The notes beneath the pieces are model-generated. The model did no database searches, had not been told where the DNA came from, and saw only the letters and a list, made by a program, of their open reading frames with translations. A DNA stretch of 64,000 nucleotides, from the NCBI RefSeq assembly GCF_019679435.2, contig NZ_CP139781.1, forward strand, positions 1,612,001 to 1,676,000, written 5' to 3'. Source of the stretch: Actomonas aquatica (GTDB taxonomy: Bacteria; Verrucomicrobiota; Verrucomicrobiia; Opitutales; Opitutaceae). Position numbers and translations under genes: made by a program. This document shows, piece after piece, positions 57,750 through 62,997 of this stretch. Position 1 is the stretch's first letter, and every line of letters starts with the position of its first letter.

Positions 57750-60326
57750 CTACGCTCCGCGTCCCGGCCCCTCCGGCCACGGGTGTTTCGGATAACGCCG
57801 CGAGAGCTCCGGGCGGATCTTGTTGGGATACAGGTCCTCCCAAAACGCCTTCAAATCGTCCGTCACTTGGATCGGCCGCTGATTCGGCGCCAGCACCTCG
57901 AAGCGCACCGGCACCCGTCCATGCCCGAGCTTAAACGTCGATTTGATCTCCACCAACTCCTGCACCCGCGCACTTAGGATCGGCGGCCCCTCCTCCGCGT
58001 AACGAATCCGCGCCCGGCGCCCATTCGCCATCTCGATCCGCTCCGGCAAATAGTCATCGAGCACCGCAAGCTGCTCCTTGCGTAGCCACTGCTGCAGCAC
58101 CGGCATGACCGCCTGATCCTTCAGATCGCGTGCGCCAAAACAGCCCAGACACATTTGCTCCACCAGGATCGAACGGTCCTCCGCCGTGATCGGACTCACC
58201 TCCAACTCCGGGAACCACTCCGCCAGACGATTCACGCGCACAATCCAGCGATCCACCACCTCCGTCCACTCACCGAGCTTCAGGTTGCCGGCCATCACCT
58301 CACGCGCCAGCAGCTCCGCCGCCCGCCCTTCATCCGGCATTTCCGCGGTTTGTTTACTCTCCAACACGAGGTCGCGGAAACGCCGCTCACGTTTCACCAC
58401 CACCCGTCGCGTGGTCCCATCGTAAACCGTCGCCAGCTCCTCCACGAAGTCATCGGGAAACAATTCACCCAACCACGCCTCCTCCACCGCTGTCACCAGC
58501 GAGAGCAGCACATTCACCTCCCCGCCCCGGCCTTCGATCTCACTGATCTCCGCCGCGACCAAAAGCGTCGCGGTGTCCACCGCCGACTCTCGCGCCAAGG
58601 TGCCACGTCGCCCATGCACCATTTCACAGCGCAACGTGCCGCGATCGAGTCGCTTGGCCAGTTGGTCACTGAACCCGGCCAACACACACTTGCAGACGTC
58701 TTCGGCCGAACCGCGATCGTCGCCCACCAACAGCCCTTCCCGCTCGGCGATCTTCAGGAACTGTTGAAACAAAGGCCCCACCTGCCGCGCGCCCTGCGCG
58801 TGAATGCCCAAACGACGGCACGAGTCCAAATCGTAGCGCTGTTCATGCGCGTAACTCCACGCCCGCATCAGTCGGAAAAAGTCGCTGCCCTCCTCATCGC
58901 CCAACACGTCTTCGCGCGCCTTGTCGACATCGCGCGCCACCCCGCGCAGCAGGAAACTGCGCCCCTGTGTCAGCGCCGACATCAGCGCCACACTGCGCAC
59001 GCAACCACGCCGCTCCGCTTCGATCATCATGCGCGCATAACGTGGGTGCACCGGGAAACGCAGCATCTTGCGACCTACCTCGGTGATCGCACCCGCCGCC
59101 CCCGCTCGGATCGCTCCCAGATCCGCCAGCAATACCTCCGCTCGCGCCAGCGCCTTTTCGTTCGGCGTCTCCAGCCAGGGGAAACCGGCCACATCATCGA
59201 TGCCGCTCGCCTTCAACGTCAGCACGACCTCCGCCAGATCGAGCCGATGCACTTCAGGCAACTCCTGCGCCGCGCGATCCGCATGATCCCGCTCCGTCCA
59301 CAACCGCAGACACACGCCCGGTGCCGTGCGACCCGCGCGACCCGCGCGCTGATCGGCACTCGCCCGCGAGATCTTTTCGATTAAGAGCGTGTTGATCCCG
59401 CGATTCGCATCGTAGCGGGCTACCCGCGCCAACCCCGCGTCCACCACCGCCGTCACGCCTTCGATGGTGAGCGAGGTCTCGGCCACATTGGTCGACACAA
59501 TGACCTTGCGCCGCGCGCCCCGCGCCACCGCCGCATCCTGCCGTTCCGGCGGCAACTCGCCGTGCAGCGGAAACACCTCAAACTCCCGCAACGCCCGATT
59601 CGCCTCCACTGCCTGCACCGTCCGGTTGATCTCGTAGGCCCCGGGCATGAACACCAACACGTCGCCATCGTTGCGCGCCACCACCTCGGCCACCGCCCGC
59701 GCGGCCACCTCCCACACCGGCTCGCGATCAAAATTCGGCGTGCGCGGCAGGTAGCTGATGTCGACCGGATGCGTGCGTCCGGCCGATTCCAACAACTCGC
59801 ACGGCGACAGGTATTCGCCCAACCGGCCCGTCTCCAGCGTGGCCGACATCACGATGATCTTCAGGTCCGGTCGCGTCTCGCGCTGGATCTGCAGCGCCCG
59901 CGCCAGCGTGATGTCACCGTAAAGGTGCCGCTCGTGAAATTCGTCGAAGACCAGCACGCTCACGCCCTTCAGTTTCGCATCAAAGGACATCTGCCGCAGC
60001 AGCACGCCCTCGGTCACAAACTTGATCTTGGTGCGCGCCGAACTGCGCCCCTCCATGCGTATTTGGTAACCCACTACGCCACCCAGCTCATCACCCTCCT
60101 CGCTCGCCACCCGTCGCGCCAGCATGCGTGCCGCCAGCCGGCGTGGCTGCAGCACCACCGCCTCGCCCGTATCCAGGAACCCATGACGCAACAGCATGCG
60201 CGGCACCTGGGTCGACTTGCCCGACCCCGTCGGCGCCCGCAGCAACACCCGCCCGGTATCGCGCACCGCGCGCACCAGGTCGGCTTCCAGTTCGTAGATC
60301 GGGAGCGAAGCAGGCGAAGAGTCCAA
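57750..60326 (-). CDS. hrpB: ATP-dependent helicase HrpB
   Basis: The 858-residue DEAH-box helicase has APTGSGKSTQ (Walker A, about 31-40), VFDEFHERH (Walker B), VMSATLE (motif III), STNVAETSLTI and RASADQRAGRAGR (motif VI), then the HA2 domain and the HrpB C-terminal domain, ending LYPNKIRPELSRRYPKHPW. HrpB is a nucleic-acid helicase of uncertain substrate. TTG at 60326 places the start just before SLPIYELEADL, as in homologues; a longer GTG start (60398) would overlap the DnaA-box-like cluster. Two overlapping signals at the 3' end: the stop sits at the edge of a heptamer array. Confidence 0.9.
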   Translation of the reverse strand: MDSSPASLPIYELEADLVRAVRDTGRVLLRAPTGSGKSTQVPRMLLRHGFLDTGEAVVLQPRRLAARMLARRVASEEGDELGGVVGYQIRMEGRSSARTKIKFVTEGVLLRQMSFDAKLKGVSVLVFDEFHERHLYGDITLARALQIQRETRPDLKIIVMSATLETGRLGEYLSPCELLESAGRTHPVDISYLPRTPNFDREPVWEVAARAVAEVVARNDGDVLVFMPGAYEINRTVQAVEANRALREFEVFPLHGELPPERQDAAVARGARRKVIVSTNVAETSLTIEGVTAVVDAGLARVARYDANRGINTLLIEKISRASADQRAGRAGRTAPGVCLRLWTERDHADRAAQELPEVHRLDLAEVVLTLKASGIDDVAGFPWLETPNEKALARAEVLLADLGAIRAGAAGAITEVGRKMLRFPVHPRYARMMIEAERRGCVRSVALMSALTQGRSFLLRGVARDVDKAREDVLGDEEGSDFFRLMRAWSYAHEQRYDLDSCRRLGIHAQGARQVGPLFQQFLKIAEREGLLVGDDRGSAEDVCKCVLAGFSDQLAKRLDRGTLRCEMVHGRRGTLARESAVDTATLLVAAEISEIEGRGGEVNVLLSLVTAVEEAWLGELFPDDFVEELATVYDGTTRRVVVKRERRFRDLVLESKQTAEMPDEGRAAELLAREVMAGNLKLGEWTEVVDRWIVRVNRLAEWFPELEVSPITAEDRSILVEQMCLGCFGARDLKDQAVMPVLQQWLRKEQLAVLDDYLPERIEMANGRRARIRYAEEGPPILSARVQELVEIKSTFKLGHGRVPVRFEVLAPNQRPIQVTDDLKAFWEDLYPNKIRPELSRRYPKHPWPEGPGRGA

Positions 60327-60384
60327 GCCCGCCACGCTCGTGCTCCCGCCCGCGTTTTCAAGCCTAAGGCGTGCCAAACCACGG

Positions 60385-60451
60385 TGTGAATAACGCACAG
60401 CTTATTCACCGGTTATTCACCATACTCCTGATGGTGAATAACTTGTGCACA
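60385..60451. promoter_or_regulatory. Cluster of DnaA-box-like nonamers
   Basis: TTATTCACA on the minus strand (60385-60393) fits the DnaA consensus TTWTNCACA. TTATTCACC occurs at 60402-60410 and 60413-60421 (plus) and 60433-60441 (minus), each one base off. TTGTGCACA at 60443-60451 is also one base off. Five such nonamers in 67 bp, two spaced exactly 11 bp apart, lie between hrpB and the structured RNA region. Confidence 0.55.
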
Positions 60452-60499
60452 TCATTTACGTGACTTTTTCGCAAAGATCCGGCACGTTCTGACCTGTTC

Positions 60500-61365
60500 C
60501 TTGATAGAACAGTCAAGCGCACGCCGAAATGAAAAAACCGGTGGAAGCGGAGACTGGGATACGCCCGGGTAACCGGGGAAAGGGAAATCGGAGCTGGTCC
60601 GGTTTACCCCCTCACGCTGAGCGCCCTTCGCGCCCCGCGAGGCATATATCACCAGTTCCTCTGGCCGGGGTCGTGCCCGGTCTAGAATCACGAATCAGGA
60701 ACTGAGCGACGAGCCGCGAAGTAAGAAACCGCAGGCGAGTCGAGTCAGGTGTGGCGGAAGTTTCGAACGCCGCACTGATACGGTGACCCAGAGGGTTCCG
60801 GCTGCTACCGTAAGCCAGCCTGTGGAACGATTTCGGACGGACCGCAACCCGTCGAAAGGCCCTTCCCGAGAGGGAGGCGGCGCGAAAACGAAAACGGCAC
60901 ACAGGAGACCGCAGGAGTCTGGCAAAGCTCGTAACGGTCTCGACAACGGGGCGGGGCGAAAAACGCGTCACCCCATTGCAAGGTAGAAGGCAGCCTGAGA
61001 GGTAAGAGGTCAGACCCGTCCCACGGGGCCAACGCCCGGCCAAAAGCCGGGGCCGACCCCGCGAGAACGGTGCCGATGTGAGGGTAACGTCCTTGCAAGC
61101 ACATCAGCACCTCGTTTGGCGCACCGCTCCCGGCAGGGAGAGGTCGAACCAGGCGCAGAGGCCTCACTCAATAAACTCCGGCCGGTAACGGCCAGAGCGA
61201 TCCCGCCATGAGATCGAAAGCCGCGCATGCCGTGCGGAGTGGCGTCGGGGAGTCTGCAGCCCGCGAAAGCGAGAGCGCCTAATGCAGACCATCGGGAAAG
61301 AGCGCGTGGCGAACGCCCACTCCCCAAATTTGGCCCAGAGAGCTTCGGCTCCCTGGGCCTTTTTT
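60500..61365 (+). ncRNA. Candidate large structured non-coding RNA, family not recognised
   Basis: About 0.85 kb with no credible protein on either strand, full of stems and ending in a strong terminator. Pairings seen: 60535-60541 with 60599-60605; 60564-60568 with 60573-60577 (GTAA loop); 60653-60660 with 60697-60704 (8 bp perfect); 60749-60756 with 60768-60775; 60905-60911 with 60935-60941; nested 61024-61028/61057-61061 and 61035-61040/61046-61051; 61069-61080 with 61100-61111 (12 bp, one mismatch); 61127-61131 with 61136-61140; 61247-61251 with 61321-61325, enclosing 61252-61258 with 61283-61289. Purine-rich joints (GAGGTAAGAGG, GGGAAAG) link them. It does not match tmRNA, RNase P RNA, SRP RNA or group I/II intron signatures as I know them. 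The 5' end is a guess; the 3' end is set by the terminator. Confidence 0.65.
61332..61365 (+). terminator. Intrinsic terminator of the candidate structured RNA
   Basis: A 12-bp stem with one mismatch (61332-61343 with 61348-61359) is closed by a C(TTCG)G tetraloop and followed by six T residues. It is 138 bp before the next start codon. Confidence 0.93.
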
Positions 61366-61503
61366 GTGCCCCCGTCCATCGCACGCCCCACTTCCGTTTT
61401 CTTTCCGCCCGCCATCGCCGGAGGTTTGCAAATTGCCAGCAGATCGCGATTAGCTGCTTCAGAACCCAGCCTCCCGTCCGATCAACGAAACAGAGGATGC
61501 CCC

Positions 61504-62997
61504 ATGCCCCCTGAAGAATCGCCCGCCAAAGCCACCGTCCTCATCGTCGACGACACGGAACGTTCCCGGGTCCTCCTGAATTCATTGCTCGCCCCCGAGG
61601 GCTACAAACTCATCGAAGCCGCCGACGGCTTGGAGGCCATCGAACAAGCCCAGGCCCACGCCCCCGACGTCATCCTCCTCGACGTCATGATGCCGGGCAT
61701 CGACGGCTTCGAAACCTGCCGTCTCATTCGCGAAATGGAAGGCCTCAAGGAGGTCCCCATCCTCATTCTCACCGCCCTCGACGACCGCAAATCCCGCCTC
61801 GAGGGCCTCAAAGCCGGTGCCGACGACTTCATCACCAAGCCCATCGACACCACCGAGCTGCGCATCCGCCTGCGCACCATCACCCGCATCAACCGCTTCC
61901 GAAACCTCTACGAAGAACGCGCCCGCTTCGAACAGGCCATCAACCACTCCCCCGACGGCGTCATCATCGCCAACGGCGAGGGCAACATCACCCTCATCAA
62001 CCCCGCTGCCCGCGACCTGCTCTCCCCCGAGGCGCCCGTAAACGGTAAGTTCTGCGAATTGCTCGCCCCCGACGCCGCCGAACAACTGCGCACCCAGATG
62101 CAGCAGCAAAAAAGCACCGGCCGCAGCTCCATCCTCACCGAATTCGTCTACGGTCGCCGCATCCCCAACCAGGTCGAAATCACCGCCGCCCACCTCGACG
62201 GCGACTCCATCATATTCAACATCCGCGACATCACCGAACGCCAATCCCTCGAAGCGCAGCTCATCAGCATGCAGCGCCTCGAGGTGCTTGGCCAACTCGC
62301 CGGCGGCATCGCCCACGACCTCAACAACATCCTCGCCGCCGTCATGGGCACCGCCTCGCTCATGGAACTCACCTCGCCCGAGGCCGATAAAAAGCACCTC
62401 AAAACCATTCTCACCAGCAGCCGCCGCGGTGCCGAGATGCTGCGCCAGCTCCTCGCCTTCTCCCGCGGCTCCGACACCGACATCGGCGCGGTGGATGTCA
62501 CCGAGGTCGCCCGCGAAGTCGCCGATGTCGCTTCCGAGACCTTCCCTGCCGTGATCGACGTGCGCTTCGAGACGCCCGCCGAAGCGTCCCTGCCCGACAT
62601 CACCGCCAACGCCTCGCAGCTCCACCAGATTTTCATGAACCTCTGTGTGAACGCCCGCGATGCCCTGCTCCCGGGCGGTGGCACACTCACCGTCACCCTC
62701 GGCCGCCGCACCATCGAATCCGTGGAAGGCCTCACCGATTCCTCCGGCGGCAAACCCGGCGATTACCTCACGGTGGCCGTGTCCGACACCGGCACCGGCA
62801 TCCCGCCCGAAGTGCGCCCTCGCCTCTTCGAACCTTTCTTTTCCACCAAACCCCAGGGCCGCGGCACCGGCCTGGGTCTGCCCACCGTCGCCCGCCTCGT
62901 GCACCTGCACCACGGCTTCATCTCCCTCGACAGCACCGTCGGCCAAGGCACCACCTTCACCTGCCACTTTCCCCTCACGCCCCCGGCCTCCGACTGA
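61504..62997 (+). CDS. Response regulator-PAS-histidine kinase hybrid protein
   Basis: The 497-residue cytoplasmic protein begins with a receiver domain (about 10-128: VLIVDDTE, Asp60 in LLDVMMPG, Thr90, Lys112), then a PAS domain (about 138-250, FEQAINHSPDGVIIANGEG), a phosphoacceptor domain with GGIAHDLNN (His271) and a HATPase domain with NLCVNARDAL, VSDTGTGIPP and GTGLGLPTVARL. There is no membrane segment. The N-terminal receiver suggests it is itself controlled by another kinase in a relay. ATG at 61504 begins the receiver domain; the upstream in-frame sequence belongs to the structured RNA. A 7-bp hairpin (63001-63021) follows the stop. Confidence 0.92.
   Translation: MPPEESPAKATVLIVDDTERSRVLLNSLLAPEGYKLIEAADGLEAIEQAQAHAPDVILLDVMMPGIDGFETCRLIREMEGLKEVPILILTALDDRKSRLEGLKAGADDFITKPIDTTELRIRLRTITRINRFRNLYEERARFEQAINHSPDGVIIANGEGNITLINPAARDLLSPEAPVNGKFCELLAPDAAEQLRTQMQQQKSTGRSSILTEFVYGRRIPNQVEITAAHLDGDSIIFNIRDITERQSLEAQLISMQRLEVLGQLAGGIAHDLNNILAAVMGTASLMELTSPEADKKHLKTILTSSRRGAEMLRQLLAFSRGSDTDIGAVDVTEVAREVADVASETFPAVIDVRFETPAEASLPDITANASQLHQIFMNLCVNARDALLPGGGTLTVTLGRRTIESVEGLTDSSGGKPGDYLTVAVSDTGTGIPPEVRPRLFEPFFSTKPQGRGTGLGLPTVARLVHLHHGFISLDSTVGQGTTFTCHFPLTPPASD

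Follow-up and report, generated by a model that had tools for sequence, protein, structure and literature searches.

A full-length MISL RNA of Actomonas aquatica is preceded by a cluster of DnaA-box-like sites

The plus-strand stretch ∼60495–61365 of the window, the whole 64-kb piece of Actomonas aquatica DNA that was analysed, is a full-length member of MISL, a known family of large bacterial RNAs. In the sampled Verrucomicrobiota lineages MISL lies beside different genes and is preceded by DnaA-box-like 9-mers. These observations are best explained, with a probability of roughly 0.7, by a stand-alone, trans-acting RNA of ∼870 nt that has its own promoter and terminator and whose transcription would be under DnaA control via the upstream boxes. 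The family is an established one, the evidence on its gene unit is new, and the upstream motifs offer a strong clue to how it is controlled.

The RNA between hrpB and the kinase gene is MISL

A cmscan search of 59500–62500 against all Rfam models matched MISL (RF03079) at 60557–61317 on the plus strand with 480.7 bits (cut-off 274.6, E 5.4e-146), and the model was covered end to end (positions 1–751 of 751). Just two other matches appeared in this search to E 5, both far below their cut-offs. MISL is the sole above-cut-off Rfam match in the 64-kb window, and the 6.1-Mb genome has one MISL match only. Both sides of 172 of the 177 model pairs are present in the window, 157 of them as standard pairs, and the window keeps both of the cores, AGACCCGT and GCGTCGGG, whose conservation in 117 rows is 98% or more.

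The first-pass annotation had described a large, stand-alone structured RNA at 60500–61365 with its own terminator and no protein. This description is accurate; its coordinates agree with the putative unit of ∼60495–61365, and the fold, the covariation and the terminator bear it out. The further claim of an undescribed RNA class is refuted by the significant match to RF03079, returned by the very Rfam check that had been proposed. The size, the fold and the gene unit would suit a new class, but a known model matched in full length and far above its cut-off leaves that reading virtually no chance, and since the MISL class is already known the headline claim of novelty falls. The class reportedly goes back to one earlier paper. 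In the searchable literature, which most subscription papers lie outside, no function is given for MISL; two figure legends of one paper use MISL RNA as a chemical-mapping example. OLE, GOLLD and ROOL resemble MISL in being large bacterial RNAs with many helices (PMC12286853). Their models, like those of tmRNA, RNase P RNA, SRP RNA and introns, had no match in 59500–62500 to E 5, and the first pass was right to set the RNA apart from all of these.

The RNA is flanked by hrpB (57750–60398, minus strand; Pfam HrpB_C) on one side and by a receiver/PAS/histidine-kinase gene on the other. The ORF listed for the kinase begins at 61282, within the RNA, only because the frame is open there; its Pfam domains start at residue 86, and an in-frame ATG lies at 61504. 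The stretch was also considered as protein-coding, which the first pass had named as grounds for abandoning the RNA. This was rejected: the three reverse-strand ORFs had no Pfam match at E 0.001, and 120 of the 172 model pairs carry double changes.

The MISL gene extends past the Rfam model

The gene unit in the window is arranged as follows.

60496–60510, plus strand: conserved 15-mer GTTCCTTGATAGAAC with a 4-bp hairpin, the putative transcript 5′ end, from the conservation of GTTC-N5..9-GAAC
60510–60556, plus strand: 5′ stem P0, outside the Rfam model, with pairing 60510–60514/60552–60556 and inner pairing 60522–60525/60540–60543
60557–61317, plus strand: MISL RNA, RF03079 model positions 1–751
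60823–60835/60889–60901, plus strand: extra helix, absent from the Rfam consensus, from covariation over 93 rows
61332–61365, plus strand: intrinsic terminator, with a 12-pair stem 61332–61343/61348–61359, a UUCG loop and T6

Covariation supports the MISL fold. In a MAFFT alignment of 93 rows including the window, each at least 60% identical to it and read with the Rfam structure, 87% of the cells of the 172 Rfam pairs were standard and 120 pairs had changed on both sides, versus 36–43% and 52–57 pairs in controls slid by 1–3 columns. Rfam pairs made up 31 of the 50 top covarying column pairs. The covariation test suggested in the first pass upholds the structure. The folding energy of the plus strand, −378 kcal/mol against −341 ± 8 kcal/mol in 20 dinucleotide shuffles (z −4.9), beats all 20. 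Isolated long-range pairs in the top covarying list were considered as pseudoknots and judged not convincing.

To what the model contains, the gene adds a conserved 15-mer at its 5′ end as well as a 5′ stem, a further helix and a terminator, all three of which covary. The model itself starts ∼60 nt downstream of the putative 5′ end and lacks the stem, the extra helix and the terminator. Over the same 93 rows, the outer P0 stem is 99% standard with double changes in three of five pairs (slid controls 13–54%), and the inner stem is 93% standard with double changes in all four (slid controls 24–60%). The letters between 15-mer and model start also pair in 46 genome_contigs loci among the matches listed, some of them from Opitutaceae, with a mean of 5.3 bp versus 2.9 bp when shuffled and at least 5 bp in 33 of the 46. 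The extra helix is 83% standard with double changes in all 13 pairs (slid 29–55%), counts that are not independent of its choice because it was selected among the strongest covarying pairs outside Rfam in the very alignment that scored it; nine of the 13 pairs are standard in the window itself, and an outward extension of the helix is unsupported (31% standard over the 93 rows). The terminator stem is 99% standard with double changes in 12 of 12 pairs (slid 18–63%). A terminator-like element lies no more than 120 nt away in 65 of 117 loci versus 3 of 585 shuffles; the terminator pattern scan by itself was not above chance (1 found versus 2.0 in shuffles).

The 15-mer places the likely transcription start near 60495. 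GTTC-N5..9-GAAC occurs upstream in 103 of 117 MISL loci, 44–46 nt before the model start in 87 of them; covariation is uninformative for its stem, none of whose pairs had a double change in the 93 rows. At least 18 of the 26 loci with GTTCATTGAAAG have a −10-like hexamer 7–9 nt before it, with TTG further up. No clear −10 stands out over 90 Opitutaceae loci, and a sigma-70 scan found no promoter at the window locus. The corrected 5′ end gives structural work a more complete transcript. Literature searches found none of the gene-unit extension, the upstream boxes or the phage joints described below.

MISL keeps its parts beside different genes

At E 0.001, MISL was found in 103 of 200 family genomes and 33 of 49 genera. 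About half of the family genomes gave no match, so MISL is not needed by all of them. The order sample had it in 36 of 177 genomes and the phylum sample in 23 of 288, samples that overlap in that the family genomes also sit in both; searches of more than 40 genomes ran under stricter filters and lost weak matches. None of 14 control genomes had a match. A pattern scan of genome_contigs returned at least 118 stretches; 17 of the 80 among the matches listed went to cmscan and 10 were MISL, eight with Verrucomicrobiota group titles and two titled 'bacterium'. The other seven were not above the cut-off, including all those of the 17 that bear titles from outside Verrucomicrobiota, namely L177 with an actinobacterial title and L180, L185 and L197 with proteobacterial ones; L185, L173 and L203 are cut by the stretch end, so that their scores reflect partial sequence. 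L186 is titled Akkermansia muciniphila, yet it shares a neighbour gene with Limisphaerales-titled loci. A mobile gene on plasmids or DNA phages was considered and rejected, as 72,556 plasmid and 50,697 phage records gave no match at blastn sensitivity.

With ∼9 kb read per locus, 24 of 34 Opitutaceae loci have hrpB (minus) upstream and typA (plus) downstream of MISL, in most of them with the hrpB start 0.2–0.4 kb away, and six of the 34 are second copies elsewhere. Twenty of 20 MISL-negative relatives have typA, six with an hrpB match within 1.5 kb; in four of these the gap between the hrpB and typA matches is 147–188 bp without a box, and the two other gaps, of ∼1.1 kb, have no box either. 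Neither hrpB nor typA was found in seven outgroup MISL loci. Elsewhere the neighbours differ, the downstream gene reading as cysteine synthase in 19 of 95 loci and as Rho in 15, names given from reading the sequence without a family search. The MISL unit keeps its parts in these different settings. No neighbour gene is common to all lineages examined, which suggests that MISL acts in trans. A cis-regulator of the neighbouring gene is thought unlikely because the neighbours vary by lineage and a terminator follows the RNA.

Five genomes have a second MISL copy that does not lie with the hrpB/typA pair (L054, L056, L057, L060 and L062). Two full-span weak matches in one genome (L063 and L064 in G199; 103 and 40 bits) are perhaps decaying or divergent copies.

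DnaA-box-like sites cluster upstream of MISL

Four DnaA-box-like 9-mers lie within 57 bp (60385–60441) directly upstream of the RNA, and a weaker site lies beside them.

60385–60393, minus strand: DnaA-box-like 9-mer
60402–60410, plus strand: DnaA-box-like 9-mer
60413–60421, plus strand: DnaA-box-like 9-mer
60433–60441, minus strand: DnaA-box-like 9-mer
60443–60451: weaker DnaA-box-like site

The window has four exact TTATTCACM sites versus 0.15 expected, all within 60385–60441. Sites with at most one mismatch to TTATNCACA are not in excess in the window (11 versus 10.2 expected), and five of the 11 are at the upstream cluster. Across the genome TTATNCACM is not over-represented, with 62 sites versus 82 for the backward reading, so the genome-wide signal is one of clustering and not of number: the MISL upstream is the only place with more than two TTATNCACM sites close together and holds the densest such cluster. 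Two of the genomic sites are at dnaA.

The association recurs in other lineages. In Opitutaceae a box is present in 44 of the 53 upstreams of at least 250 nt (40 of 93 loci, with too little upstream sequence, were left out), against none in 52 downstream stretches or in the opening 300 nt of 93 MISL RNAs. Loci outside the family, plus L049, have a box upstream in 20 of 24 cases, and genome_contigs loci among the matches listed in 48 of 58, against 19 of 1160 shuffles (22 of 80 were dropped, having no 5′ end found or less than 200 nt). When 8-mers were counted without bias in 66 dereplicated upstreams, TTATTCAC came out on top (48 versus 0.5 expected); Opitutaceae- and Opitutales-titled loci had been removed by hand from this set, except that L049, the second copy of an Opitutaceae genome, was retained. 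Exact TTATNCACA occurs in 39 of the 66 versus 0.8 expected; the backward pattern, with 4 of 66 versus 0.2, likewise exceeds expectation somewhat. The boxes are specific to MISL among the RNAs compared: in 30 genomes picked by hand among MISL carriers, a box is present upstream of MISL in 26 (44 boxes), of tmRNA in 0 of 30 and of RNase P RNA in 0 of 29. The four genomes without an exact box upstream of MISL include G006 and G040 from the Opitutaceae, the family of A. aquatica. The dnaA loci of the same genomes have a box in 24 of 30, over stretches of ∼3.2 kb compared with at most 300 nt for the others.

At the ninth position the boxes often have C, which departs from the textbook DnaA box, and most sites are TTATTCAC with little constraint on the base that follows. 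DnaA domain IV reads GGRDHGTV in this genome and in 26 of the 29 others (the expression matched 27 of the 30); E. coli DnaA has GGRDHTTV, with T where DnaA here has G. This variant may relate to the loose ninth base.

DnaA control is the favoured explanation of the boxes

As in a DnaA-regulated gene, DnaA-box-like sites are found at the MISL promoter, a likeness to DnaA-controlled promoters such as that of dnaA; the differences are that the target here is a large noncoding RNA and that DnaA binding is deduced from motifs alone. DnaA would most likely bind the cluster directly upstream and thereby control MISL transcription. A level of MISL RNA that tracks the replication or growth state would follow from such control. 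The RNA itself probably folds into a compact particle of many helices, with or without protein.

Alternatively, the MISL RNA could be an ordinary one and the boxes those of a different regulator that recognises a similar site, DnaA being uninvolved. The preponderance of TTATTCAC with its loose ninth base would fit such a protein. It is an unlikely reading, though one to be taken seriously: the same 9-mer stands at the dnaA loci (24 of 30), as expected under DnaA autoregulation, and exact TTATNCACA far exceeds expectation in the dereplicated upstreams. It is very improbable that the cluster, the densest in the genome, serves as a replication origin or titrates DnaA, with the adjacent RNA incidental. 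GC skew (20 samples of 20 kb, of which one, at 2.44 Mb, is opposite in sign to its neighbours) flips sign near 0.3–0.6 and 4.0–4.3 Mb, whereas MISL lies at 1.67 Mb, and an origin is thought unlikely for this reason. Moreover, the boxes stay with the MISL promoter in other gene contexts, and many relatives have no MISL unit. Some titration of DnaA may occur as a side effect of the cluster.

DnaA control of MISL could be given a wider meaning. Within the DnaA regulon of Verrucomicrobiota MISL might form an arm made of a large RNA, its synthesis tied to the replication initiator phylum-wide, and hence act in controlling replication, in the cell cycle or in adapting the growth rate; this proposal is tentative, at close to even odds, and a role in replication or the cell cycle is a guess. 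Given a DnaA-box promoter across the lineages sampled, one can now ask by experiment whether DnaA binds at this orphan giant RNA, whether the RNA tracks the replication cycle and what its loss does.

MISL pieces are joined to ssRNA-phage sequences

A search of viral_contigs with five MISL patterns identified three levivirus-like IMG/VR contigs of ssRNA phages that begin with sense MISL pieces: L284 (1–860), L364 (1–560) and L365 (1–340). L284 has MISL from 62 to about 806 with 543 bits; L364 matches the model from 144 to about 612 (254.5 bits) and L365 its 5′ third (210.5 bits), both below the cut-off. One pattern also picked out contigs L366 and L367, which contain no MISL. The phage parts are recognisable from a levivirus replicase in L284 (E 3e-42; its maturation match is under the cut-off), a maturation protein in L364 (E 7e-28) and tblastn matches of L365 to L284 and L364 (E 1e-19 and 4e-36). 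Each joint breaks MISL at a different place, with MISL always 5′ and in the same sense; two of the pieces begin 61 and 46 nt upstream of the model start, and the phage part of L284 starts at a hairpin like those with which other levivirus contigs begin. The MISL parts resemble cellular MISL (81, 89 and 85% to the best match).

Leviviruses have no DNA stage, so the joined contigs derive from RNA. They are probably chimeras formed by template switching during cDNA synthesis onto a plentiful RNA. Real recombinants, in which a host RNA was taken up at the phage 5′ end, are doubtful. Among control contigs, 42 carrying an RNase P motif and 7 an SRP motif, none had a levivirus protein, and L365 was positive in the same test, a comparison between differing motifs that fits both the chimera and the recombinant reading. 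Under either, the joints would show that MISL exists as RNA in relatives. The start (1–60) of a further levivirus contig, L330, looks unlike that of its relatives and had no match in Rfam at E 0.01, and there may be additional 5′ joints.
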